64,000 bases of DNA, taken from assembly GCA_033344915.1 (NCBI GenBank), contig JAWPML010000001.1, positions 2,352,369-2,416,368 on the forward strand. The letters are read 5' to 3'. The notes under the pieces are model-generated. The model did no database searches, had not been told where the DNA came from, and saw only the letters and a program-made list of their open reading frames with translations. The DNA comes from Acidimicrobiales bacterium (lineage in GTDB: Bacteria; Actinomycetota; Acidimicrobiia; Acidimicrobiales; Aldehydirespiratoraceae). Both the position numbers and the translations under genes were made by a program. Of this stretch, positions 24,348 to 34,308 are shown piece by piece; position 1 is the stretch's first letter; each line of letters begins with the position of its first letter.

Positions 24348-24364
24348 GATTAGCGTAGCTAATC
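24348..24364. promoter_or_regulatory. Probable MarR operator
   Basis: GATTAGCGTAGCTAATC is a perfect 7-bp inverted repeat with a 3-bp centre, the size and AT-rich style of MarR operators, in an otherwise GC-rich context. It lies just upstream of the marR-like ATG and overlaps the stop codon of the preceding membrane protein gene. Autoregulation is inferred. Confidence 0.7.
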
Positions 24365-25540
24365 GTCGGCGGAGACCAACACCCGGTGGTAGGCGGCCCG
24401 CACGGCGAGGGCCTCGCGGACCTCGGCCGTCATGTCCTCGGCGAACTCCTCGCGGTAGGCGTCGTCGGTCAACACCTGCACCGCGAACTGGAGCCCCGAC
24501 ATCAGCCCGATGAACGCGGACACGACGATGAGTTGGCGGGTGAAGATCAGCTCGCCGCCGAACACGGACCAGGTGCGCAACCAGTCGTCCGCCCGCGTGA
24601 GTTCATCCGTCGTCGTCCACTGGGTGAGCGTGTCGGCTCGCACCGTGAACAAGCCGAAGAAGAGATAGAACGCGGTGATGACGAGGGCGACCAGGAAGAT
24701 CTGGATCGCCTGGGAGACGAAGAGCAGCAGGGCCACGTTCCACTCCGCCGGGCGACCCAGGGCGGGAGCATCCGGCGCGGGTGCGTCGTCGCCCGGCACG
24801 CAGCCTTCCATCGGCGTGCCGTCGCAGAACGGCCGCACCTCGGCCCATCGACTGAACCGGGCGAGGTCCACCGTGATGCGCTTGACCGAGAGCATGACGA
24901 ACGCGCTGCCGATGCCGAGGATGACCACGGCGACCACCAGGAAGTAGGGCCACTCGAAGTCGTTGGCGACCTGCCACATCTCCGCGTTGAGGAAGATGAA
25001 GGCGCTGAACAGGAGCAGGATCGGCAGCGACTTCAGGGCGAGGTTGGCGATGTCGTACATCTGTGCCCCCACCTGGCCGAGTGACCAGCGCAGCATGGGG
25101 AGGATGCCCCAGGCCGTGATCACGAACCCGACGCCGAGGATCAGGATGTTCGCGCCGAGCAGCCAGAGGATGTTCTCGCCGAGGGCATCCTGGGCACCGA
25201 TCGCCGTCGGGATCACCGGCAGGATGAGGTAGAGCAGCACCTCGGGAGTGCCAACCGTGTCCGGCAGCATCAACAGGGGGCGACGGCGCAGGCGGTTGAC
25301 GAGGATGAAGGCGCCGAGCATGAGGGCGACGCCGCCGAGAAAGGCGAGCGCCTGGCCGATCCCCGACCAGCGGTCACCGAAGACCAGGAACAGTTCGAGG
25401 AAGACGACCAGCGAGAGAAAGGGGAACATGCGGGTGAGCACGTCCTCGCGGACCGAGTATTCGTCGATCAGGTGCGGGAGGCCCTGACGCACGAACCATC
25501 GTTCGGTGCGATCACGCTGGACAGCAGGCGACTCCTCCAT
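24359..25540 (-). CDS. Polytopic membrane protein of unknown function
   Basis: 393 residues from the ATG at 25540. About eight hydrophobic segments are visible, among them FPFLSLVVFLELFLVFG, VLLYLILPVIPTAIG, ILWLLGANILILGVGFVI, PYFLVVAVVILGIG and IFLVALVITAFYLFF. A soluble loop with two Cys (FCDGTPMEGCVPG) lies between the later helices. No family is recognised. It starts 16 bp after the true end of imuB and may be co-transcribed with it. Because imuB is frameshifted, the shifted frame runs through into this gene without a stop. Confidence 0.8.
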   Translation of the reverse strand: MEESPAVQRDRTERWFVRQGLPHLIDEYSVREDVLTRMFPFLSLVVFLELFLVFGDRWSGIGQALAFLGGVALMLGAFILVNRLRRRPLLMLPDTVGTPEVLLYLILPVIPTAIGAQDALGENILWLLGANILILGVGFVITAWGILPMLRWSLGQVGAQMYDIANLALKSLPILLLFSAFIFLNAEMWQVANDFEWPYFLVVAVVILGIGSAFVMLSVKRITVDLARFSRWAEVRPFCDGTPMEGCVPGDDAPAPDAPALGRPAEWNVALLLFVSQAIQIFLVALVITAFYLFFGLFTVRADTLTQWTTTDELTRADDWLRTWSVFGGELIFTRQLIVVSAFIGLMSGLQFAVQVLTDDAYREEFAEDMTAEVREALAVRAAYHRVLVSADD

Positions 25541-25556
25541 CGTCGCAAACCCTAGG

Positions 25557-27124
25557 TCAGTCCCAGATCGCGGTGACCCACCACTGCCGATGTTCGAGGG
25601 TGAGCAGCCGTGCCTCTCCGTCGTCGGCGAGGATCTGGAAGCGGGCCCGGCGCCGGTGCTCGTCGGTGTCCCACCAGCGTTCGTCGACCGGCCAGGGCCC
25701 GGCCCACCCGACCACGGCGACCCGGCGCCGGTCGACGACGAGGGTCGTGGGCGGCGCCGACGGGAGCCCCCGACCGGTGACGGTGACCATGCGGTCGTCG
25801 GCGTCGAGCAGCTCGGCCGGCGTCGGCGCCGCCGGCACCCGGGTGGGCGACGGGCGGGGCAGGCGGCCGGGCCACGGCGCCTCCTCGTCGTCGGTGAGCA
25901 GCTCGCGCCCCGCAGCTCCACGGTGGCCGCCGGCACCAGCACGAGCTGCTCGTCGGCGTGGCGCCCACCACGGTGCTCGGGCACCATCACCGCATCGGCC
26001 CCGAGCTGCCCCTGGAGACGGGCGGCGACCCGCGCGGCCCGTTCGTCCACCTCGGTCTCCCCGCCCCAGAACCCGAGCTGGCGACCCTTGGCGGCGACGA
26101 CCTCGTCGGGGATCAGCGCCACCCGGGCGATGCCGCCGCTCGGACGGGTGGCGGCCGAACCGTGCAGCCAGCCGTCGAGCTGCCAGCGGACCCGGTCGGC
26201 GATCGCCGCGGCCGACAGTGATCCCTCGTGGCGCCAGAGCCGCAGGAGCGTCTCGCCGTGTTCGGTCTCGGCTTCGATCGCGATGCGGACGCAGGCGATG
26301 CCCTCCCGATCGAGCCGCTGATGGAGATCGTCGGCGAGCGATCTGGCACAGAACGCGACGCGGTCGACCCGGTCGGCCGGCGGGTCGATCTCCATCGTGA
26401 CCGACCAGTCGACCGGGGGGAGCCGGGCATCGGGCGGACGTTCGTCGAGGCCGGCGGCGAGCCGGTGGGCCTCGCGGCCCTCGTCGCCGAAGCGGGCGAG
26501 CACGTCGGTGGCCGGCAGCGCCGCGAACGCGCCCAGCGATCGGAGGCCGAGCCGGAACAGCACATCGGTGAGCTCGGGCCGTTCGAGCACCGAGATGGCC
26601 ATCGGCGACAGAAAGGCCGGGCTCTCCCCCGCGTCGACGATCCGGGTCGACGCGGCCTCACCCTGGGGCGCGGCCCGGGCCGCGAGGCCGGCGGCGAACG
26701 GTCCGTCGGCGATGCCGATGCGCAGGTCGGTGCGTCCGGCGAGGGCGACCGCCATCCGCTCGTGGACGAGGTCGGCCACCGCCGCATCGCCGCCGAAGTA
26801 GCGCCCCGGTCCCCGCATCGCGAACGCGCAGGTGCCGGGCCGGGCGACCTCCACCCGCGGGGTGATGTCGTCGAGGGCCGCCAGGATCGGCTCGAACGAG
26901 CGGGCCTCACGGGCCTCGTCGCGTTCGAGCACGTCGAGATCGGCGCAGCGCGACTGGGCGACCCGGCGGCGCAGCCCGCGGGCGACGCCGGACCGACGAG
27001 CGGCCGGCGAGGCCGCCACGACACGGTTCGCGTGGACGACGGCGACGGGTTCGTCGAGGGGCCGGCCGAGGGCGACGACCGGCCAGTCAGGACACCAGGC
27101 GACCAGTGTCCGCACCGCGGTCAT
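25557..27124 (-). CDS. imuB: ImuB, inactive Y-family polymerase homolog (frameshifted)
   Basis: The N-terminal part (from the ATG at 27124) reads as ImuB: CPDWPVVALGRP, RRVAQSRCADLDVLERDEA, GPGRYFGGDAAVADLV and LGFWGGETEVDERAAR. The acidic catalytic residues of active DinB enzymes are missing, as is normal for ImuB. At 25908-25911 the frame is lost: the following ~115 residues make sense only in another frame (PAELLDADDRMVTVTGRG, then RRRARFQILADDGEARLL to the stop at 25557). One missing G in a G4 run (C4 on the plus strand) explains it. ImuB bridges DnaE2 and the beta clamp, so a real mutation would damage the mutasome. It overlaps imuA' by 38 bp. Confidence 0.9.
25908..25911 (-). other. Frameshift site in imuB (homopolymer run)
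   Basis: Upstream of this run the reading is ...ATVELRG; downstream the sensible reading is RELLTDDEEAPWPGRL in the frame needing one additional base. A four-base C run (G on the coding strand) would have to be five bases long to restore the gene. It may be a real indel or a consensus error. Confidence 0.8.
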
Positions 27125-27824
27125 GCGGATCCTCCCTCTCGCCGATCACGACCGGTTCGCCTTCGGGGCCGGGCAGGAGCATCGCCGTGGCCCTCGGGCG
27201 GGAGAACGCACCACGCCCCTGGGCCTGCACCCGCACGCGGCGGGCCCGCAGGACCCCGTGGCCGACACCGAGGCCCGCCCATTCGTGGTCGACGATCGAC
27301 AGGCCCACGTCGATTCCTTCCTGGGCGCCGGCGCCGATGCGGATGATCACCGATCCCCGCTCGCGCATGCGGGCGTTGAGCCGCCGCATGTCGGCCGGGC
27401 GTACCCGCACCGCCGGACCCACCAGCACGATGTCGACCGAGCCGACGAGGGCGGCAAGAACATTGCCCACGAACGACTTGCCGGTCCGGTCGCCCGACGG
27501 ATCGACGATCAGCATCCGCTCGAGCGCCACCCCGGCCTCCCGAGCCGCCGCGAGCCCCAGGTCCGGGTCGCCCACGACGGCCACCCACGAACCGGACGCC
27601 GACGGCCCGGCCGCCACCGCCAACGCCAGCGCCGTCGCCCCCGTGCCGTCGACCGACACGACGGACCCGCGCTTCAATCCCCCCTCGGGGAACAGCGACG
27701 CCAACGCGGCATGGACCGGCAACGTGCGTTCACGGGCCAGGGCGAGCGGCGCCACCCGATCCGCGACGAGGCGCAGTGACGCATGTCGAGGGTCGTCGAC
27801 GAGGGCGTGCTCCGCAGCTGCCAT
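27087..27824 (-). CDS. imuA: ImuA' (RecA/SulA-like SOS mutasome protein)
   Basis: 245 residues from the ATG at 27824; a longer frame would run through the SOS box and is rejected. The sequence shows a RecA-like core: LFPEGGLKRGSVVSVDGTGA, WVAVVGDPDLGLAAAREAGV, MLIVDPSG and VDIVLVGPAV. With imuB immediately downstream (38-bp overlap) and an SOS box 12 bp upstream, this is the imuA'-imuB cassette that works with DnaE2 in damage-induced mutagenesis. Confidence 0.88.
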   Translation of the reverse strand: MAAAEHALVDDPRHASLRLVADRVAPLALARERTLPVHAALASLFPEGGLKRGSVVSVDGTGATALALAVAAGPSASGSWVAVVGDPDLGLAAAREAGVALERMLIVDPSGDRTGKSFVGNVLAALVGSVDIVLVGPAVRVRPADMRRLNARMRERGSVIIRIGAGAQEGIDVGLSIVDHEWAGLGVGHGVLRARRVRVQAQGRGAFSRPRATAMLLPGPEGEPVVIGEREDPHDRGADTGRLVS

Positions 27825-27835
27825 CGATCCAGTAT

Positions 27836-27849
27836 CGAACACGTGTTCG
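27836..27849. promoter_or_regulatory. LexA (SOS) box upstream of imuA'
   Basis: CGAACACGTGTTCG is a perfect palindrome matching CGAAC-N4-GTTCG, 12 bp upstream of the imuA' start. It is also 51 bp upstream of the divergent selenoprotein-like gene, so LexA could affect both. Confidence 0.9.
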
Positions 27850-27899
27850 CTTTCCGCAAGAGGGGAATGCGGCCGGGCTCGACGTGGTTCACTGCCCAC

Positions 27900-28208
27900 A
27901 TGGAACTCGCCCTCACCGACCGCGCTGCGGCCGTCATCGCCCGCAAGGGCGGCACCGCCGTGGTCGACCTGCTCGAACCCTTCGGTTGAGGAAAGAAGTT
28001 CGAGGTATCAGTTGATACCAGGACCAAGGGCCGGCGACTCGACGGCTACACCGTCCGCCGCATCGACGACCACGAGGTCCTGCTCGACCCCGACCTGCTC
28101 CGCCTGCCGATCGAGTTGACGATCACCTCAGGCGGTCTCTTCGGCCGCGGCCTCAGCGCCACCGCCGACGGTCTCAACGGCGCCGCCTGCCCCATCGAAC
28201 TGCTCTGA
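27900..28208 (+). CDS. Probable small selenoprotein (HesB/IscA-like 'CC/Se' type) with in-frame TGA
   Basis: From the ATG at 27900 the frame reads MELALTDRAAAVIARKGG, TAVVDLLEPFG, then TGA at 27987-27989 (codon 30), and continues in the same frame as GKKFEVSVDTRTKGRR to a second TGA at 28206-28208, 102 residues in all. Both sides of the internal TGA use GC-rich codons like the neighbours. A perfect hairpin begins 15 nt after the TGA. The N-terminal pattern (A-x-x-x-I-x-x-K-G-G, then a beta strand ending at the TGA) recalls the IscA/HesB-like selenoproteins known from genome surveys. The family link is from memory. The alternative is a nonsense-mutated gene. No strong ribosome site is seen; an ATG at 27867 is also in frame. 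Confidence 0.6.
28004..28019 (+). promoter_or_regulatory. Candidate bacterial SECIS hairpin
   Basis: GGTATCAGTTGATACC forms a perfect 7-bp stem with apical GT (or a 6-bp stem with loop AGTT). The loop G is 22 nt after the in-frame TGA. Bacterial SECIS elements lie within the coding region just after the UGA, with the apical loop carrying a conserved G about 16-37 nt downstream; this fits. The surrounding region is GC-rich, so an AT-containing perfect hairpin stands out. Confidence 0.55.
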
Positions 28209-28357
28209 GGCTGCGAGCCGGTTCGAGCTGGCGTCCCCGCGGGGGACGTATTTGCGTCGCCGATGTGACGCAACCGGTGACTCTCGGACGAGGAGATGCG
28301 TCGGTCGTCAGTCTTGGTTGACAACGGCGACGGTTTGTCAAGCGAAACTGACGATCG
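28209..28357. repeat. Structured repeat R, copy A
   Basis: It begins directly after the selenoprotein stop. It contains a GTCCCC/GGGGAC hairpin, a TTGCGTC/GACGCAA hairpin (28252-28258 and 28267-28273) and a long stem (28307-28322 with 28337-28352, 14-nt loop). About 95% identical to copy C by eye, including the preceding gene end. No convincing coding capacity in any frame. The remaining ~95 bp to the cupin gene show nothing further. Confidence 0.8.
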
Positions 28358-28454
28358 TCGTTGGCAGACCCTCATCGAACTGCCAATGAGCACGATTAGG
28401 TAGCCCTGTACGGGACGGGGACTCACCACGGCCGGAGACGTGCCAAGGGCCTCG

Positions 28455-28922
28455 TCAGACTCCCGCCTCCAAGGCCGAGAGGGGTGGGCCGTGCAGGGTG
28501 AAACCGTGCCGGTCGGCAACTTCGGCGAGCGCCTGCGGATCTGGTGGTCCATCGGCGAACACCTCGGCGATGTCGGCGTACACGATGTGGAATCCGCCGG
28601 GCCACTGGTACTGCACGATTTCGGCATGTTCGTCGCCGATCGCCATGAAGGCGTGCACGGCATCGGCGGGGGTGTAGATGAACGAGCCCGCTTTGAGGTC
28701 GAAGGTCTCGCCGTCGACGTGGAACCGGACCTCACCGCGGGTCACGACGTCCCATCCGGCCCAGGGGTGGCTGTGCAGCGGGGGGCCGTCGCCGGGCGCC
28801 AACCGCTCGACCATGACGTCGGGCATCACTTCGTCGCCCTGGCAGAGGAATGTCATCTGGTCGGTCGGCGACGTCGTGAACGTCAGACCCTCGCCGGGTC
28901 GCGTGATGAGGGGTTCGTTCAT
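28455..28922 (-). CDS. Cupin domain protein
   Basis: 155 residues from the ATG at 28922 (GGAG 5 bp upstream). The double-stranded beta-helix motifs are clear: PPLHSHPWAGWDVVTRGEVRF and the second motif YTPADAVHAFM, with His residues able to bind a metal. No enzyme-specific feature is visible. It is divergent from a TetR gene with a perfect palindrome between them, so it is probably a target of that regulator. Confidence 0.88.
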   Translation of the reverse strand: MNEPLITRPGEGLTFTTSPTDQMTFLCQGDEVMPDVMVERLAPGDGPPLHSHPWAGWDVVTRGEVRFHVDGETFDLKAGSFIYTPADAVHAFMAIGDEHAEIVQYQWPGGFHIVYADIAEVFADGPPDPQALAEVADRHGFTLHGPPLSALEAGV

Positions 28923-28954
28923 GTCGTCTCCATCCCGAGGTTGTCGATAACGGT

Positions 28955-28969
28955 ACTGTACCGTACAGT
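28955..28969. promoter_or_regulatory. Probable TetR operator
   Basis: ACTGTACCGTACAGT is a perfect palindrome (7-bp arms, one central base) in the short divergent space between the cupin gene (start 28922) and the TetR gene (start 28991). TetR regulators usually bind such sites and control the divergent neighbour. Confidence 0.8.
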
Positions 28970-28990
28970 TCCGTGACGTCAAGGGGAGCG

Positions 28991-29590
28991 ATGAACGCAG
29001 CCGACCGTCGTTCGCGCTACATCGAGAGTGCGCTTGGCCTGTTCATCGAGCATGGCTACAACGGGATGTCGATGGACGACCTGGTCTCGGCCGTCGGTGG
29101 TTCGAAGGCAACCCTCTACCGCTACTTCGGCAGCAAGGAAGATCTCTTCTCCGCGATCGTCGACGAACTCCAGACTGTTCTCGGAGGTGCACCACCCGCC
29201 CAGGACGTCGGCGACCTCGCCCTCGCTGACGGACTCCGGATCCTGGGACGTGCCACCGCCGACGCCGCCCTGAGCGAGCGCGCCATCGTGCTACTGCGAC
29301 TCGCTGTCGGTGAGCAGAACCGATTTCCCGAGCTCGCACGCCTGCTGTTCGACCTCGCCCCTCAGCGGAGCTACGAGAGGTTCGTGGCGTTCCTCGAACT
29401 CAAGCGTGAGCGAGGCGAGGTCGACTTCGAGGACGCCCAGATCGCCGCCGAGCACTTCCTCGCCGGACTGGTTGGGCACCAGCAGCTCCGCATGCTCCTC
29501 GTTGGAGACAAACCGAGCCCAGCCGCCGTAGACCGCCGGGTCGACGCCGCAGTCCGGATGTTCCTCCGGACCTACGCAACGAGACAGTGA
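28991..29590 (+). CDS. TetR family transcriptional regulator
   Basis: 199 residues. The ATG at 28991 follows AGGGGAG and is preferred over a GTG at 28973 that overlaps the operator flank. It has an N-terminal helix-turn-helix of TetR type (ALGLFIEHGYNGMSMDDLVS, then GGSKATLYRYFGSKEDLF) and an AefR-like C-terminal ligand domain (NRFPELARLLFDL). Presumed repressor of the divergent cupin gene. Confidence 0.92.
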   Translation: MNAADRRSRYIESALGLFIEHGYNGMSMDDLVSAVGGSKATLYRYFGSKEDLFSAIVDELQTVLGGAPPAQDVGDLALADGLRILGRATADAALSERAIVLLRLAVGEQNRFPELARLLFDLAPQRSYERFVAFLELKRERGEVDFEDAQIAAEHFLAGLVGHQQLRMLLVGDKPSPAAVDRRVDAAVRMFLRTYATRQ

Positions 29591-29602
29591 CCGGCGAAAC
29601 GG

Positions 29603-29735
29603 CGCAGCATGCCCCATCGAGCCGGCTCTGAGGCTTCGCGCCGGTTCGAGTTGGCGTCCCCGCGGGGACGTGTTTGTGTCGCCGATGCGACACAACCGGC
29701 GACTCTCGGACGAGGCGGTGGGTCGGTCGCGAGAG
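29603..29735. repeat. Structured repeat R, copy B (diverged)
   Basis: Homologous to copies A and C from the GCCCCATCGA block through the GTCCCCGCGGGGAC hairpin and the second hairpin. The second stem is TTGTGTC (29674-29680) with GACACAA (29689-29695), a paired change relative to TTGCGTC/GACGCAA. The third stem is lost. The rest of 29591-29930, a stretch without an intact gene, holds only this copy, a short CTCGTCCTGCTCGTCG-like segment also near copy C, and the gene remnant at 29846. Confidence 0.75.
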
Positions 29736-29845
29736 AAACCCTGCATCGTCCTGCTCGTCGTCCTCTGTCGCGACGCAACCGCGGGCTGCGAGCCGCGGGT
29801 CTGGGACGGCCCTCGTTGGCAGACACCATTTGATCTCCGCGAAGT

Positions 29846-29914
29846 CTCGGGTTGATACCAGGACCAAGGGCCGAGAGGCCTCAACGGAGCCGCCTGCGCG
29901 ATCGAACTGCTCTG
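29846..29914 (+). pseudogene. Internally deleted remnant of the selenoprotein gene
   Basis: GTTGATACCAGGACCAAGGG is identical to the selenoprotein gene just after its hairpin. It then jumps to the last ~40 bp of that gene (CTCAACGG..GCC, then ATCGAACTGCTCTGAGG), about 110 bp being missing. The frame is broken. It proves a second, decayed copy of the gene. Confidence 0.75.
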
Positions 29915-29930
29915 AGGTGGTCAGCAGGAA

Positions 29931-30353
29931 TCAGCCTTGCGCTGATCTCCCGAGACGAGCCAGCCGCACCACTTCGTCAGAATCAAGGAGCGTCACCCAC
30001 AGATCTTCGCCGGCGACCTGGATCCTCTGATCACCGGTACGGCGAGGAGGCGGCGTAATCGCATCCCTTGGCAACCGGACCAGCACCGCGTTGGGCGCCG
30101 GTCTCAGTCGCCTGTCCAGCTCGACCTTCACGACGTTTCTGTCGGTCAGACCAACAGCAAGCCGGCGACGCCACCGATTCACGCCACCGGTCGCCGTCAG
30201 CACGCCGAACAAGCCGACGAGAGGTCCCAACAACACGAGCCACGCCTCCGCGCCGGGCCGCGGTCCCCGAATCGCGACAAACGTCCCCAGCAGACTCTCG
30301 CCCTTCTCGAGCAGTGTCTCGACTTCCCGAGCGAGAGCATCGGACTGCGCCAT
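29931..30353 (-). CDS. Small membrane-anchored protein of unknown function
   Basis: 140 residues if the ATG at 30353 is used; the frame stays open upstream through repeat sequence, so the start is uncertain. It has a short N-terminal helix (ALAREVETLLEKGESLLG), one hydrophobic segment AWLVLLGPLVGLFGVLT and a basic beta-rich C-terminal half with LVRLPRDAI and GEDLWVTLLDSDEVVRL. No family recognised. It is bounded on both sides by repeat R sequence and gene remnants, so it looks like accessory cargo. Confidence 0.6.
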   Translation of the reverse strand: MAQSDALAREVETLLEKGESLLGTFVAIRGPRPGAEAWLVLLGPLVGLFGVLTATGGVNRWRRRLAVGLTDRNVVKVELDRRLRPAPNAVLVRLPRDAITPPPRRTGDQRIQVAGEDLWVTLLDSDEVVRLARLGRSAQG

Positions 30354-30423
30354 CAACAAACGGTAGGCGGTCCACTCCAGGGCGTGTGTACGTGGCTGCA
30401 CGGCTGAGGACCAAACGCCGTTT

Positions 30424-30489
30424 CGAGCCGCGGCCTCAGCGCCGCCGACGACGGTCTCACGGCGCCGCCTGCCCCATCGAACTGCTCTG
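30424..30489 (+). pseudogene. 3' remnant of the selenoprotein gene preceding repeat copy C
   Basis: It matches the last ~65 bp of the gene at 27.9 kb (GCCGCGGCCTCAGCGCC, then GCCTGCCCCATCGAACTG) with a one-base deletion and substitutions, so the frame is lost. It is followed without a break by repeat R copy C, just as the intact gene is followed by copy A. Confidence 0.75.
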
Positions 30490-30641
30490 AGGCTGCGAGC
30501 CGGTTCGAGCTGGCGTCTCCGCGGGGACGTATTTGCGTCGCCGATGTGACGCAACCGGTGATTCTCGGACGAGGAGATGCGTCGGTCGTCAGTTTTGGTT
30601 GACAACGGCGACGGCCTGTCAAGCAAAACTGACGAGCGCCG
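30490..30641. repeat. Structured repeat R, copy C
   Basis: It has the same order of hairpins as copy A. The long stem pairs GTCAGTTTTGGTTGAC (30588-30603) with GTCAAGCAAAACTGAC (30618-30633), 15 of 16 positions, around a 14-nt loop. The gene-free stretch 30354-30729 contains this copy and the preceding remnant; in 30642-30729 I see nothing else. Confidence 0.8.
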
Positions 30642-30729
30642 ATCGCACGGACAACGCCTCGTCCTGCTCGTCGCTCTGTCATCTGACATCGACCGTAGGC
30701 GGCGGCGTGCCCGCGGGGACGCCCGTCGG

Positions 30730-31089
30730 TCACGACTCCTGGCTGAGGGATCGCAGCACGCAGAACTCGTTGCCCTCGGGATCGGCAAGCACCACCCAGG
30801 ACTGGTCACCCGGCCGGACATCAGCACGCACCGCGCCGAGCCGTTCGAGCCGCTCGACTTCGGCGTCCTGATCGTCCGGCCTGAAGTCGAGATGCAGCCG
30901 ACTCTTCGCCATCTCGAGCTCGTCGACGGCCACGAAGAGCAGCCCGGGCATCCGGTCGGGTGACGGCCGAATCTCGAACTCGCCGGGGCCTTCGTCCACG
31001 ACCACCCACCCGAGCGCCTCGCACCACCAGCGGCCGAGCGCGGCCGGATCGCGGGCGTTCACGATCGTCTGCTCCCACGTCAGAGTCAT
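30730..31089 (-). CDS. VOC/glyoxalase-like protein
   Basis: 119 residues, one glyoxalase/bleomycin-resistance fold. It starts TIVNARDPAALGRWWCEALGW and ends LADPEGNEFCVL, as is typical of short actinobacterial VOC proteins. The final Glu/Asn/Phe strand is the usual metal or substrate strand. Substrate unknown. It lies 13 bp downstream of the GNAT gene on the same strand. Confidence 0.88.
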   Translation of the reverse strand: MTLTWEQTIVNARDPAALGRWWCEALGWVVVDEGPGEFEIRPSPDRMPGLLFVAVDELEMAKSRLHLDFRPDDQDAEVERLERLGAVRADVRPGDQSWVVLADPEGNEFCVLRSLSQES

Positions 31090-31102
31090 ACGGTCACCGG
31101 AG

Positions 31103-31690
31103 TCATGCGGTCACCGGACGCAGGTCGCGCCGCATGAGCACCCGGGGGAAGCCGTTGAGCACCGACGTGGTGTCGGCCGCCTTCACGAACCCGGCCTTCT
31201 CGAACGTGGCCATCGTCCCCACATACGCCATCGTCGTGTCGATCGTGGCGCCCCGGTTGTCGAGCGGGTAGCCCTCGATCGCGGCGGCGCCGTACGACCG
31301 GGCGAACTCGACGGCGCCGGCGAGCAGGTGGTGGGAGATGCCCTCCTTGCGGTGACCCGGCCGCACCCGCATGCACCACACCGACCACACGTCGAGGTCG
31401 TCGACATGGGGGATCTTGCGGTTGCGGGCGAAGCTCGTGTCGGCCCGCGGGTGCACGGCGGCCCAACCGACGACCTCGTCGCCGTCGTAGGCGAGCACGC
31501 CGGGCGGCGGATCCTGGGCGACGAGCAGCTTCACCCGTTCACCCCGGGCCGGGCCGACCAGTTCCCGATTCTCCTTCGACGACCGGAGGCGGTAGCTCAG
31601 ACACCAGCACACGCTCGCATCGGGGCGCTTGGGCCCGACGATCGCCTCGACGTCCTCGAAGACGGTCGCCGGCCGTACCTCGATCGCCAT
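31103..31690 (-). CDS. GNAT family N-acetyltransferase
   Basis: 195 residues. The acetyl-CoA-binding region is CMRVRPGHRKEGISHHLL (about residues 110-127). The preceding beta strand VVGWAAVHPR and the following helix are in the expected order. The N-terminal stretch with CWCLSYRLR is shared with a GNAT subfamily of unknown substrate. Its start overlaps the serine hydrolase stop by one base, so it is translationally coupled. Confidence 0.85.
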   Translation of the reverse strand: MAIEVRPATVFEDVEAIVGPKRPDASVCWCLSYRLRSSKENRELVGPARGERVKLLVAQDPPPGVLAYDGDEVVGWAAVHPRADTSFARNRKIPHVDDLDVWSVWCMRVRPGHRKEGISHHLLAGAVEFARSYGAAAIEGYPLDNRGATIDTTMAYVGTMATFEKAGFVKAADTTSVLNGFPRVLMRRDLRPVTA

Positions 31691-32853
31691 CAGGCTCCGG
31701 CGCCGCCCATGAGCGCGCCGTAGGCGGACAACACGACCTGACCGCCCCGCAGGTCACCGAGCAGGTCGGCCTCCATATGGTTCATCACGTAGGTGGCGGT
31801 GAGCTCGTTCTCGAGATCGATGACAGCGATCGAACCGCCCCACCCGCCCCAGTAGAAGCAGCGTTCGTTGGGCATCGGCATGGCGTCGGTGCCGAGGCCG
31901 AAGCCCAGGCCGTGGCGCAACGGCGTCATCATCACCAGATCCGTCCGATCGGTCTGGACCTCGAGGATCGACTCGACCGTCTCGGGTGACATCAGGCTCA
32001 CCCCGTCCACCGTGCCGCCGCAGGCCAACGCCGAGTGGACCCGGCCGACAGATCGGGCGTTGCCGAACCCGCCGGCGGCGCCGATCTCGGCGGCCCGCCA
32101 CTCGCGGGTGCGGGGTTCGGTGGCGTCGATCGAGCAGCTGGCGAACGCCCGGGCCGCGACCGAGTCCGCCGCGACGGCGCCCATCGAACCCGCCAGCGAC
32201 GACATGTCGGGTGGCACGAGCTCACCACACCGATGGTCGTGCTCGGGTCCGAACCCGATGTGGAAGTCCGCCCCCAACGGCTCGGCGACCTCCTCACGGA
32301 AGAACGTGCCGAGCGACCGTCCGTCGACGCGGCGGACGAGTTCGCCGAGCAGATAGCCCTGCGAGACGAGGTGGTAGGCCGACGCGGTGCCGGGCTCGAA
32401 CCACGGCTCCATCGCGGCGAGGATCTCGACACAGCGGTCCCAGTCGTAGAGCGTCGACGCGTCGATCGCCGGGTCCCACCCGGGCACGCCGGCCTGATGG
32501 CTCATGCAGTGGGCGACGGTGACGTTCTCCTTGCCGTTCGCCGCGAACTCGGGCCAGTAGGTGGCGACGGTCGCCTGCGGGTCGAGGAGCCCCCGGTCGA
32601 TGCACATCAGGACGCACGTGGCCGTCATCGTCTTGGTCGTCGAGTAGACGTTGACGATCGTGTCGTCGACCCATGGCGTGCCGTCGGGCGCACGGTCACC
32701 GGCCCAGATGTCGACGACGGGACGTCCGTGGTGGGTGATGCACGCGGACGCCCCCAGTTCGGTCGCGTTCGTGAAGTTCGCGGCGAACGCCGTCGCCACG
32801 GGCTCCCAACCCGGCTCGATCGTGCCGCTGATCTCCAACCCGTCGATGTTCAT
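31690..32853 (-). CDS. Beta-lactamase-fold serine hydrolase (class C/esterase type)
   Basis: 387 residues from the ATG at 32853. It has the nucleophile motif S-x-x-K in VYSTTKTMTA (~70), a Tyr motif around TASAYHLVSQGYLLGELV (~155) and a C-terminal WGGWGGS motif replacing KTG. This layout is that of EstB-like esterases rather than true beta-lactamases. No signal peptide is seen, so it is likely cytoplasmic. Divergent from the lipoprotein gene. Confidence 0.88.
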   Translation of the reverse strand: MNIDGLEISGTIEPGWEPVATAFAANFTNATELGASACITHHGRPVVDIWAGDRAPDGTPWVDDTIVNVYSTTKTMTATCVLMCIDRGLLDPQATVATYWPEFAANGKENVTVAHCMSHQAGVPGWDPAIDASTLYDWDRCVEILAAMEPWFEPGTASAYHLVSQGYLLGELVRRVDGRSLGTFFREEVAEPLGADFHIGFGPEHDHRCGELVPPDMSSLAGSMGAVAADSVAARAFASCSIDATEPRTREWRAAEIGAAGGFGNARSVGRVHSALACGGTVDGVSLMSPETVESILEVQTDRTDLVMMTPLRHGLGFGLGTDAMPMPNERCFYWGGWGGSIAVIDLENELTATYVMNHMEADLLGDLRGGQVVLSAYGALMGGAGA

Positions 32854-32916
32854 GGTGCTCCGTTCCCCGATCTGCCCGAGGACCGTACCGCGGACCTCCC
32901 CGGTACGTTGAAGCCC

Positions 32917-34308
32917 ATGCCGCTGCGCCGTGTCGCCCTGCTCCTCGCGGTCGTCGCCACCGCGTGCGCACCGGGACCGGACCTGAACGCCGACGCCGAC
33001 GATCCCGACGAGCCGACGGCCACCACCACGACGCTCCCGAGCGAGTCGACGACGACCACCGTCGCGCCCGACGAGCCGACCCTGCCGACCCTCCCCGAGA
33101 TCGAACCGGGACCCGTCGACGACGCCCCCGCCGGCCCCGTCGACCCGATCGACGGCCGCGCCGTGTTGCAGAACCGGGTGGTCACCATCCGCGCCGGCGA
33201 GGAGGTGATCGAGGTCCCGACCACCGGGCTGCCCACCCAGCCGACCTGGTCGCGCGACGGCGAACGCCTCGTGTTCCTCACCAACCGCAACGGCGCATCG
33301 TCGGTGGTCGTGACCGACCCGGACGGCACCGTGATCGCCGATCAGGCGGCGACCCGGCCGTACTTCTTCTTCTCCTGGAGCCATGACGGCACCCGGATCG
33401 CCGCCCTCGGACCCGGCGACGAGCGCACCACGCTCGACGTCCTCGACGCCGACGGCGCGGTGCTCCAGACCGACGTGGCCGACGCCCAGTCGCTGTGGAT
33501 CGCGTGGGATCCACAGTCGCTGCGCCTCGCGGCCCACGCCGACGAGCGACTGCTGCGCGTCGACGCCGACGGCACCGCGACGGACCTGGGCGAGGTGGGC
33601 CTCCAGTTCTTCGCCCCGAAGTGGATCCCGGGACGCGACGAGATCCTGCTCGTCGTCGACATCGAAGGAACCGAGACGCTCGTCCGCCGGGGGCTCGACG
33701 GCGGCGACACGCTCGTCGCCCTCGGATCCGTCGAGACCGAGACGAGCATCGTCGTCAACCCCGACGGCCGCACCGCCGCACTCACGATCCTCTTCGATGT
33801 GGAAGGCGGCGGCGGTGGCGTGGGCGAGCGGACCGCCCTCGGCCCGCCGCTCGCCCAGGAGACCCCTGCCCGTTCCGGCCGCGTCGACATCATCGACCTG
33901 GACACGGGCGAGCGGGTGCCCGTCTTCACCGGCCACGCCCTCTGGGTCGAGTGGAACCCGATGGGCGACCGATTGCTCGTGGGTACCGCCGACATCGCCG
34001 AGGGAACCGGGGCGTGGTGGGTCTACGAACACGACGATCCGTTCGCGGACGCGGCCGCGGAGATCGAACCGACCGTCACGCTCGCCGTCGCGTCCTACGT
34101 GCCCACCCGCGTCTTCCTCGCGAGCTATCTGGTGTTCGCCGACCAGTTCGTCGAACAGCCCCGCCTGTGGGCCCCGACCGGCGACCGGTTCATCTACACG
34201 ACGGACACGACCGACGGCGGATGGGCGATGGCGGCCGCCCTCGACGATCTCGGCCGACCGGACAAGATCGGGCCGGCCGCGGTCGCGTTCTGGAGTCCGG
34301 TCGGGTGA
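32917..34308 (+). CDS. Lipoprotein with beta-propeller (TolB-like) repeats
   Basis: 463 residues from the ATG at 32917. It has a signal peptide (MPLRRVALLLAVVATAC) whose Cys-17 would be the lipidated residue, then a Thr/Ser/Pro-rich linker (~25-75). A series of WD40/TolB-like blades follows: PTWSRDGERLVFLTNR, FSWSHDGTRIAALG, IAWDPQSLRLAAH and VEWNPMGDRLLVG. It is probably anchored outside the membrane; function unknown. The 17-bp gap to the next gene suggests one operon. Confidence 0.85.
   Translation: MPLRRVALLLAVVATACAPGPDLNADADDPDEPTATTTTLPSESTTTTVAPDEPTLPTLPEIEPGPVDDAPAGPVDPIDGRAVLQNRVVTIRAGEEVIEVPTTGLPTQPTWSRDGERLVFLTNRNGASSVVVTDPDGTVIADQAATRPYFFFSWSHDGTRIAALGPGDERTTLDVLDADGAVLQTDVADAQSLWIAWDPQSLRLAAHADERLLRVDADGTATDLGEVGLQFFAPKWIPGRDEILLVVDIEGTETLVRRGLDGGDTLVALGSVETETSIVVNPDGRTAALTILFDVEGGGGGVGERTALGPPLAQETPARSGRVDIIDLDTGERVPVFTGHALWVEWNPMGDRLLVGTADIAEGTGAWWVYEHDDPFADAAAEIEPTVTLAVASYVPTRVFLASYLVFADQFVEQPRLWAPTGDRFIYTTDTTDGGWAMAAALDDLGRPDKIGPAAVAFWSPVG

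Follow-up and report, generated by a model that had tools for sequence, protein, structure and literature searches.

A small gene in an Acidimicrobiales genome raises two questions: whether its single in-frame TGA is read as selenocysteine (Sec) or as a stop, and what the partial copies of the gene that lie downstream of it represent. The gene occupies positions 27900..28208 on the forward strand of the 64,000-nucleotide stretch of DNA that was analysed (the window). Frame +1 of this interval reads as the initial annotation had reported, with 102 codons and one TGA at codon 30 (27987..27989, forward strand), and ends with TGA as its terminal codon. The predicted selenoprotein has 102 residues, with Sec30, a single Cys at position 97 and a predicted IscA/SufA-like fold. 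The initial annotation had named three findings that would speak against reading codon 30 as Sec: a genome lacking the Sec machinery, homologs that stop at this codon or carry a residue other than Cys or Sec there, and loss of the hairpin 3' of the codon in relatives that keep the TGA.

The machinery is present in the source genome, a single contig of 4.48 Mb. SelA (384.8 bits, cut-off 267.9), SelB (275.7 bits, cut-off 242.25) and tRNA-Sec (64 bits, cut-off 47) each scored above the cut-off. Homologs of the gene were then read in two sets, 100 relatives (own genome included) and 397 members of the order, which have 12 genomes in common. All 28 homologs in the first set have an in-frame UGA at the aligned codon, and an internal TGA was present in 53 of the 55 homologs in the second; together the sets give 71 genomes of the order with a homolog, 69 of them with an internal TGA. 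The codon-30 position was read in 48 of the 69 TGA homologs (28 + 16 + 4), the remaining 21 contributing to the internal-TGA tally only. In the 50 homologs read, the Sec position holds TGA (48) or Cys (2) and nothing else. Both Cys homologs come from one genus (genomes G422 and G362) and have Cys exactly at the Sec position. Within the family, the homolog is absent from 29 of 51 genomes, which counts against the overall explanation favoured below.

Occurrence of the gene follows that of selA. Among the 100 relatives, a selA match was found in all 28 homolog-bearing genomes, and the gene was found in none of the 20 genomes that gave no selA match (hypergeometric p = 5.8e-4, uncorrected for kinship). 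Over both sets, selA was detected in 68 of the 69 TGA genomes, the exception (G216) being 83% complete. No selA match was obtained in G422 or G362; the Cys homologs occur where selA is absent, as expected of a bacterial selenoprotein.

Downstream of the TGA lies the putative SECIS hairpin, GGTATCAGTTGATACC (28004..28019, forward strand), in which GT is flanked by a perfect 7-bp inverted repeat. Its loop G, at 28011, is 22 nucleotides after the TGA, counted from the A of that codon, which agrees with the initial description in both respects. Folding with ViennaRNA gave a 6-bp stem with an AGUU loop and a z-score of -2.54 for 27987-28022; for the longer stretch 27978-28036 the z-score was only -0.91. 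A hairpin was found in all 48 TGA homologs read (44 with the VSVD motif and four others), and there was no such hairpin in either Cys homolog; none of the TGA homologs read had lost the element. Covariation was assessed on 43 of the 44 VSVD loci (one, which contains N, was excluded), representing 18 distinct sequences. In this alignment 99.2% of cells are paired and three pairs are changed on both sides in a compensatory manner; none of 500 shuffles matched either the observed paired percentage or the covariation score. Two other measures were less telling: at least as many doubly changed pairs arose in 8 of 500 shuffles, and at least as many pair types in 218 of 500. Three loci (L089, L090 and L097) encode the peptide EVAVAT, not EVSVDT, yet keep the stem as GGTGGCGGTCGCCACC.

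These data bear directly on the alternative that the TGA is a true stop or the gene a pseudogene, the hairpin being a by-product of codon choice. In favour of a by-product, a 7-pair hairpin also arises in about 7% of cases when EVSVDT is encoded by typical codons. Nevertheless the hairpin appears to be more than chance, because its stem uses codons that are rare locally: in six neighbouring frames (one of which, 24359-27124, seems frameshifted) GTA and GTT each account for 2 of 299 Val codons, TCA for 9 of 163 Ser codons and GAT for 32 of 205 Asp codons. A stop or a pseudogene is further contradicted by the retention of the TGA across 69 genomes, by the Cys homologs of two genomes in one genus, neither of which has a selA match, by hairpin covariation even where the peptide changes, and by dN/dS values far lower than 1 in the part beyond the TGA. 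We therefore give this alternative hardly any credence. Decoding of UGA codon 30 as Sec is strongly supported by these comparisons, and none of the three adverse findings named at the outset came true.

What kind of protein the gene encodes is less plain from its sequence. A Pfam search gave nothing above 13.4 bits. In NCBIfam the only match was NF041239, a CC/Se motif family (seleno)protein of Moorella, which aligns colinearly over residues 1-75 of 91 with E = 0.015 and 15.4 bits, below its 40-bit cut-off; five relatives scored 13.1-27.4 bits (best E 2.7e-6), all likewise below 40 bits. The initial description of the protein as undescribed was thus nearly right, and has to be amended for this distant named family, another small selenoprotein with a weak colinear match. 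The motif given for NF041239 in a review (PMC13188914) is CxxU, whereas the window protein has PFGU, with Pro at residue 27. TIGR01911, the HesB-like selenoprotein, gave no match at E <= 1; its motif is given in the same review as UxGP (PMC13188914), in contrast to UGKK here, and the likeness lies in Sec within a small protein, in our case with a predicted IscA-like fold.

An AlphaFold2 model built with 41 homologs had a pLDDT of 84.6. Foldseek matched it to SufA with E = 6.3e-4; Z-scores were 8.0 for SufA, 7.5-8.0 for IscA and 7.3 for DsrR, and SufA and IscA chains head the list, although a Z of 8.0 over 84 and 91 residues is middling by the tool's own note. A profile search of PDB sequences gave no match, so that neither Pfam nor PDB places the protein in the IscA/SufA family by sequence, and the resemblance to IscA/SufA/HesB-type proteins is one of predicted fold. 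The earlier label HesB/IscA-like accordingly holds at the level of fold and fails as membership of TIGR01911. IscA/SufA-type proteins have three Cys residues; the window protein has a single Sec and a single Cys. In alignment A2 the Sec/Cys position is one of eight invariant columns. By analogy, the protein probably carries a metal, Fe-S or redox site, where Sec30 and Cys97 may serve as ligands of a metal or Fe-S group, or as the partners of a redox pair. Judged by sequence, the selenoprotein represents a new branch in the vicinity of NF041239, whose cut-off it does not reach and whose given motif it does not share. A well-supported branch of IscA-fold selenoproteins is thereby added in the Acidimicrobiales, one that ordinary annotation would truncate. 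No viral, plasmid or phage carrier of the gene was matched.

Upstream of the gene, and divergent to it, lie imuA/imuB-like SOS mutagenesis genes (24359-27899, reverse strand), named by eye. The imuB frame extends into the following gene and seems to be frameshifted near its C-terminus; 25557-25971 offers an alternative frame. Between the selenoprotein gene and the imuA-like gene is a LexA-type box, CGAACACGTGTTCG (27836..27849), which we take to be a LexA site. Such a box was also found upstream in four other loci of the same genus and in G015, and none was found in the three g8 loci and one g9 locus examined.

The second question concerns the DNA downstream, whose repeated 3' parts and cassettes are absent from the initial annotation. 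The 3' two-thirds of the gene, from about nucleotide 100, recur downstream of it in members of four genera. The left limit of homology between the gene and the clean downstream copies is TTCGAGG (27999..28005, forward strand), just before the hairpin, which we presume to be the crossover segment. The cleaner copies are in G001, G013, G015, G030 (and G025), G021 and G031, while those in the window are decayed; most of the arrays are in MAGs, and some are split over contigs. The start points are clustered: 12 of 22 copies begin at gene nucleotides 97-100, for which uniform starts would give p = 4e-17, a value to be read with the copies not all being independent (a 33-nucleotide piece of the gene 3' end in L063 was excluded from the count). 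The clean copies are, moreover, preceded by an 18-nucleotide leader (ATGAGGGGTTAACGCGNN type); the sequence that precedes TTCGAGG in the intact gene is a different one, TTGAGGCAAGAAG.

A matrix of leader plus core, built from 12 sites, was used to scan about 226 kb and picked out three further junctions, at 30422 in the window (score 19.4), at 11095 in L055 (21.7) and at 3447 in L058 (26.1), the second of which had already been located before the scan. The other matches above 11 were one on the forward strand (12.1) and two on the reverse (12.0 and 14.7), and one training leader site scored only 9.6 when left out. The L058 junction consists of leader and TTCGAGG with no recognisable 3'-part copy behind it. 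A lone leader with a 3'-part copy was seen in L059 (contig G013:C77), near 133340, on a contig other than that of the gene; it is perhaps a secondary insertion or a rearrangement.

The main rival explanation is ordinary local tandem duplication followed by decay, with homologous recombination between repeats shuffling the cargo and no dedicated recombinase. It can draw on the 10 of 22 copies that start elsewhere than nucleotides 97-100; at least two of these, those at window 30422 and L055 11095, have leader and core with an internal deletion, and the L057 copy runs into the contig end. Against it stand the 12 copies, in four genera, that share the same left boundary within 4 nucleotides, and a leader unlike the gene's own 5' sequence.

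The cargo between the copies speaks to the same choice. In the comparison of the window with G003, synteny extends up to the gene stop and resumes weakly at +5177/+4434 (about 33076 in the window) and strongly at +5516/+4791 (about 33415), which delimits a region of variable cargo (28208..33076). A similar difference between G030 and G013 extends from +315 to +3504 or +11310, among the matches listed; over these pairs, synteny breaks after the gene and resumes some 3-11 kb further on. In the window, the gene is directly followed on the forward strand by a dispersed repeat of about 160 nucleotides (28209..28370), of which whole or partial copies also occur near 29625 and 30484 and, elsewhere in the genome, at 464101, 1504888 and 3405593 (partial). 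This repeat makes up part of the window's repetition, a point in favour of duplication. Within it, 30580-30641 contains a 25-nucleotide inverted repeat with an Rfam mir-19 match far below the gathering score; Rfam gave nothing at gathering score in L053 and L055, and three sub-gathering matches in 27000-33000.

Next come genes for a cupin-domain protein (28455..28982, reverse strand) and a TetR-family regulator with an AefR-type C-terminal domain (28991..29590, forward strand), and then two remnants on the forward strand: a decayed copy of the gene 3' end with the downstream repeat (29598..29729, gene nucleotides 277-408) and a decayed displaced 3' part (29851..29917, gene nucleotides 112-134 and 271-311). 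Behind these lies cassette A (29931..30404, reverse strand), which has no Pfam match. Its relative in G001 reaches 66% in amino acids over the matched stretch; the shared segment, 29877-30383 in the window, directly follows the intact gene in G001 and lies further downstream in the window, and in the alignment the decayed 3' end and the cargo are colinear. Cassette A is followed on the forward strand by the leader found with the matrix (30404..30421), which was not among the training sites, and by a copy (30422..30647) consisting of the TTCGAG core, an internal deletion and then the gene from nucleotide 241 onward with the downstream repeat (93%). The remaining cargo comprises a glyoxalase-like (VOC) protein (30730..31089, reverse strand), a relative of which is also found right behind a 3'-part copy in G030 (68% in amino acids), and a GNAT acetyltransferase (31103..31690, reverse strand).

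Across loci, unrelated cargo lies between the copies, and some cargo is common to species at different array positions. Eight matches were obtained over six locus pairs; the match between L057 and L058 spans a junction, so that five pairs share cargo. Besides the two pairs involving the window (with G001 and with G030), cargo is shared between G001 and G004 and between G001 and G003, lying behind the intact gene in G003, and a helix-turn-helix gene is shared between G015 and G021. In addition to cupin, TetR, glyoxalase and GNAT, the families in the variable regions include MerR, helix-turn-helix, DUF4326, HIT, PIN, ECF sigma and alpha/beta hydrolase. That the cargo differs from junction to junction argues against tandem duplication.

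When eight copies were each set against their closest intact gene, dN/dS was 0.09-0.30, with stop codons skipped and with three copies under 210 nucleotides, one with an internal stop and one with a late frameshift in the set. These values suggest that protein selection acted on the copies for most of their history, even though the first 33 codons are missing from them. The gene of G020 appears mosaic: G013 is the closer partner of its 5' part (10 informative sites against 1) and G030 that of its 3' part (32 against 9), with the switch falling between nucleotides 108 and 111. Fisher's test gave p = 5e-5 for this triple, which was picked after inspection; its uncorrected p in a scan of 252 triples was 0.002, and different breakpoints were obtained with other triples.

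We consider it likely that the locus holds a true selenoprotein gene whose Sec30 is inserted with the aid of the hairpin, and that in several related genera the hairpin region is also an insertion site for cassettes. A cassette would combine TTCGAGG and the 3' two-thirds of the gene with cargo genes and a leader of the TGAGG type. In circular form it would recombine site-specifically with the gene at TTCGAGG, replacing the 3' part by its own working copy, so that the reading frame is kept and a new SECIS imported; the previous 3' part and older cargo would be pushed downstream, where displaced copies decay. Since incoming cassettes would bring the Sec-decoding hairpin along with the 3' two-thirds, selection on the selenoprotein would favour functional cassettes. 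Comparison between genomes supplies the case for Sec, the sharp copy boundary, the leader, the variable cargo between conserved flanks, the shared cargo and the purifying selection; from these we infer the recombination mechanism, its circular intermediates and an enzyme that would act in trans. On balance we favour the broader reading, in which the SECIS region doubles as the integration site of an unnamed, integron-like cassette system in the Acidimicrobiales and the gene has repeatedly been rebuilt by mobile DNA.

Several candidates for the enzyme and its target were considered. IntI integrase exceeded the TIGR02249 cut-off in none of the 51 family genomes, and matches below it also occurred in 14 of 14 control genomes. 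In a search of 11 genomes with PF00589, no tyrosine recombinase was found at the arrays of the six array-bearing genomes, and none was limited to those genomes. An array-specific enzyme of this type was rejected: two strong Xer-like matches occur in each of the 11 genomes, the extras vary, and G021 has an array but, beyond the two Xer-like matches, only a fragment. For 123 array reading frames, the families listed (25 of 62 in Pfam, 25 of 44 in PHROG) included no recombinase. A tRNA target was likewise rejected, as neither the window nor 10 of the 11 array loci gave a tRNA, and the one tRNA-Ala, in L059, lies kilobases from the copy. Dyad symmetry around TTCGAGG was highest at this position of 29 offsets, by a small margin (0.40 against 0.38); the 14-nucleotide arms would fit a tyrosine recombinase but are suggestive only.

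That the recombinase searches gave no result is a further point for tandem duplication, as is the fact that repeats by themselves permit homologous exchange. Weighed with the shared boundary, the leader and the differing cargo, we consider duplication unlikely. A second alternative is that the array is a true integron whose IntI and attC-type sites have diverged beyond the reach of the tests applied. Its cassette-sized units and fixed first insertion site fit, and so does cargo that includes a PIN-domain protein, DUF4326, GNAT and regulators, of kinds typical of integrons. The absence of IntI above the cut-off from all 51 genomes counts against it, as does the lack of excess folding at 12 cassette ends. 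Single folds had suggested attC-like hairpins there, a candidate that was dropped when folding was tested by comparison with shuffles: at each of 16 offsets the mean z over the 12 junctions fell within -0.62 to +0.38. A divergent integron is therefore quite improbable, in our estimate, and the cassette system at the SECIS region remains the preferred reading. Literature searches listed no description of this array. If confirmed, it would represent a new cassette platform, with a dedicated recombinase still to be sought, and would show a translational recoding element doubling as a recombination site.

The array can be compared with two kinds of known system. Like integrons, with their attI/attC arrays, it has small unrelated cargo units at one site, with older units apparently displaced downstream and units common to species at different positions; that such an array of unrelated small cassettes is present at one site follows from comparison and not from an observed insertion. 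Unlike integrons, it showed no IntI over the cut-off and no attC-type folding, its insertion point is inside a protein gene, and its clean units hold about 210 nucleotides of that gene. We do not call it an integron because the two defining tests, IntI and attC, failed as far as they were run. One survey of complete genomes records no complete integron in Actinobacteria (PMC9024848).

The resemblance to elements of the SCCmec/SGI1 type lies in the fate of the target gene, which is left intact, its 3' part being provided by the element. SCCmec integrates at rlmH and the 3' part of that gene is restored. SGI1 is described as integrating at trmE (PMC8409611). Here, supply of a working 3' part is indicated by comparison, through intact genes followed by displaced 3' parts, the dN/dS of those parts and the mosaic gene of G020. 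The present units differ from such elements in being mostly about 0.6-2.6 kb long, with no tyrosine recombinase gene found on them, in replacing two-thirds of the gene, and in a site that overlaps the SECIS. Small exchangeable cassettes would thus sit inside a coding sequence and its recoding signal, and not beside an integrase.
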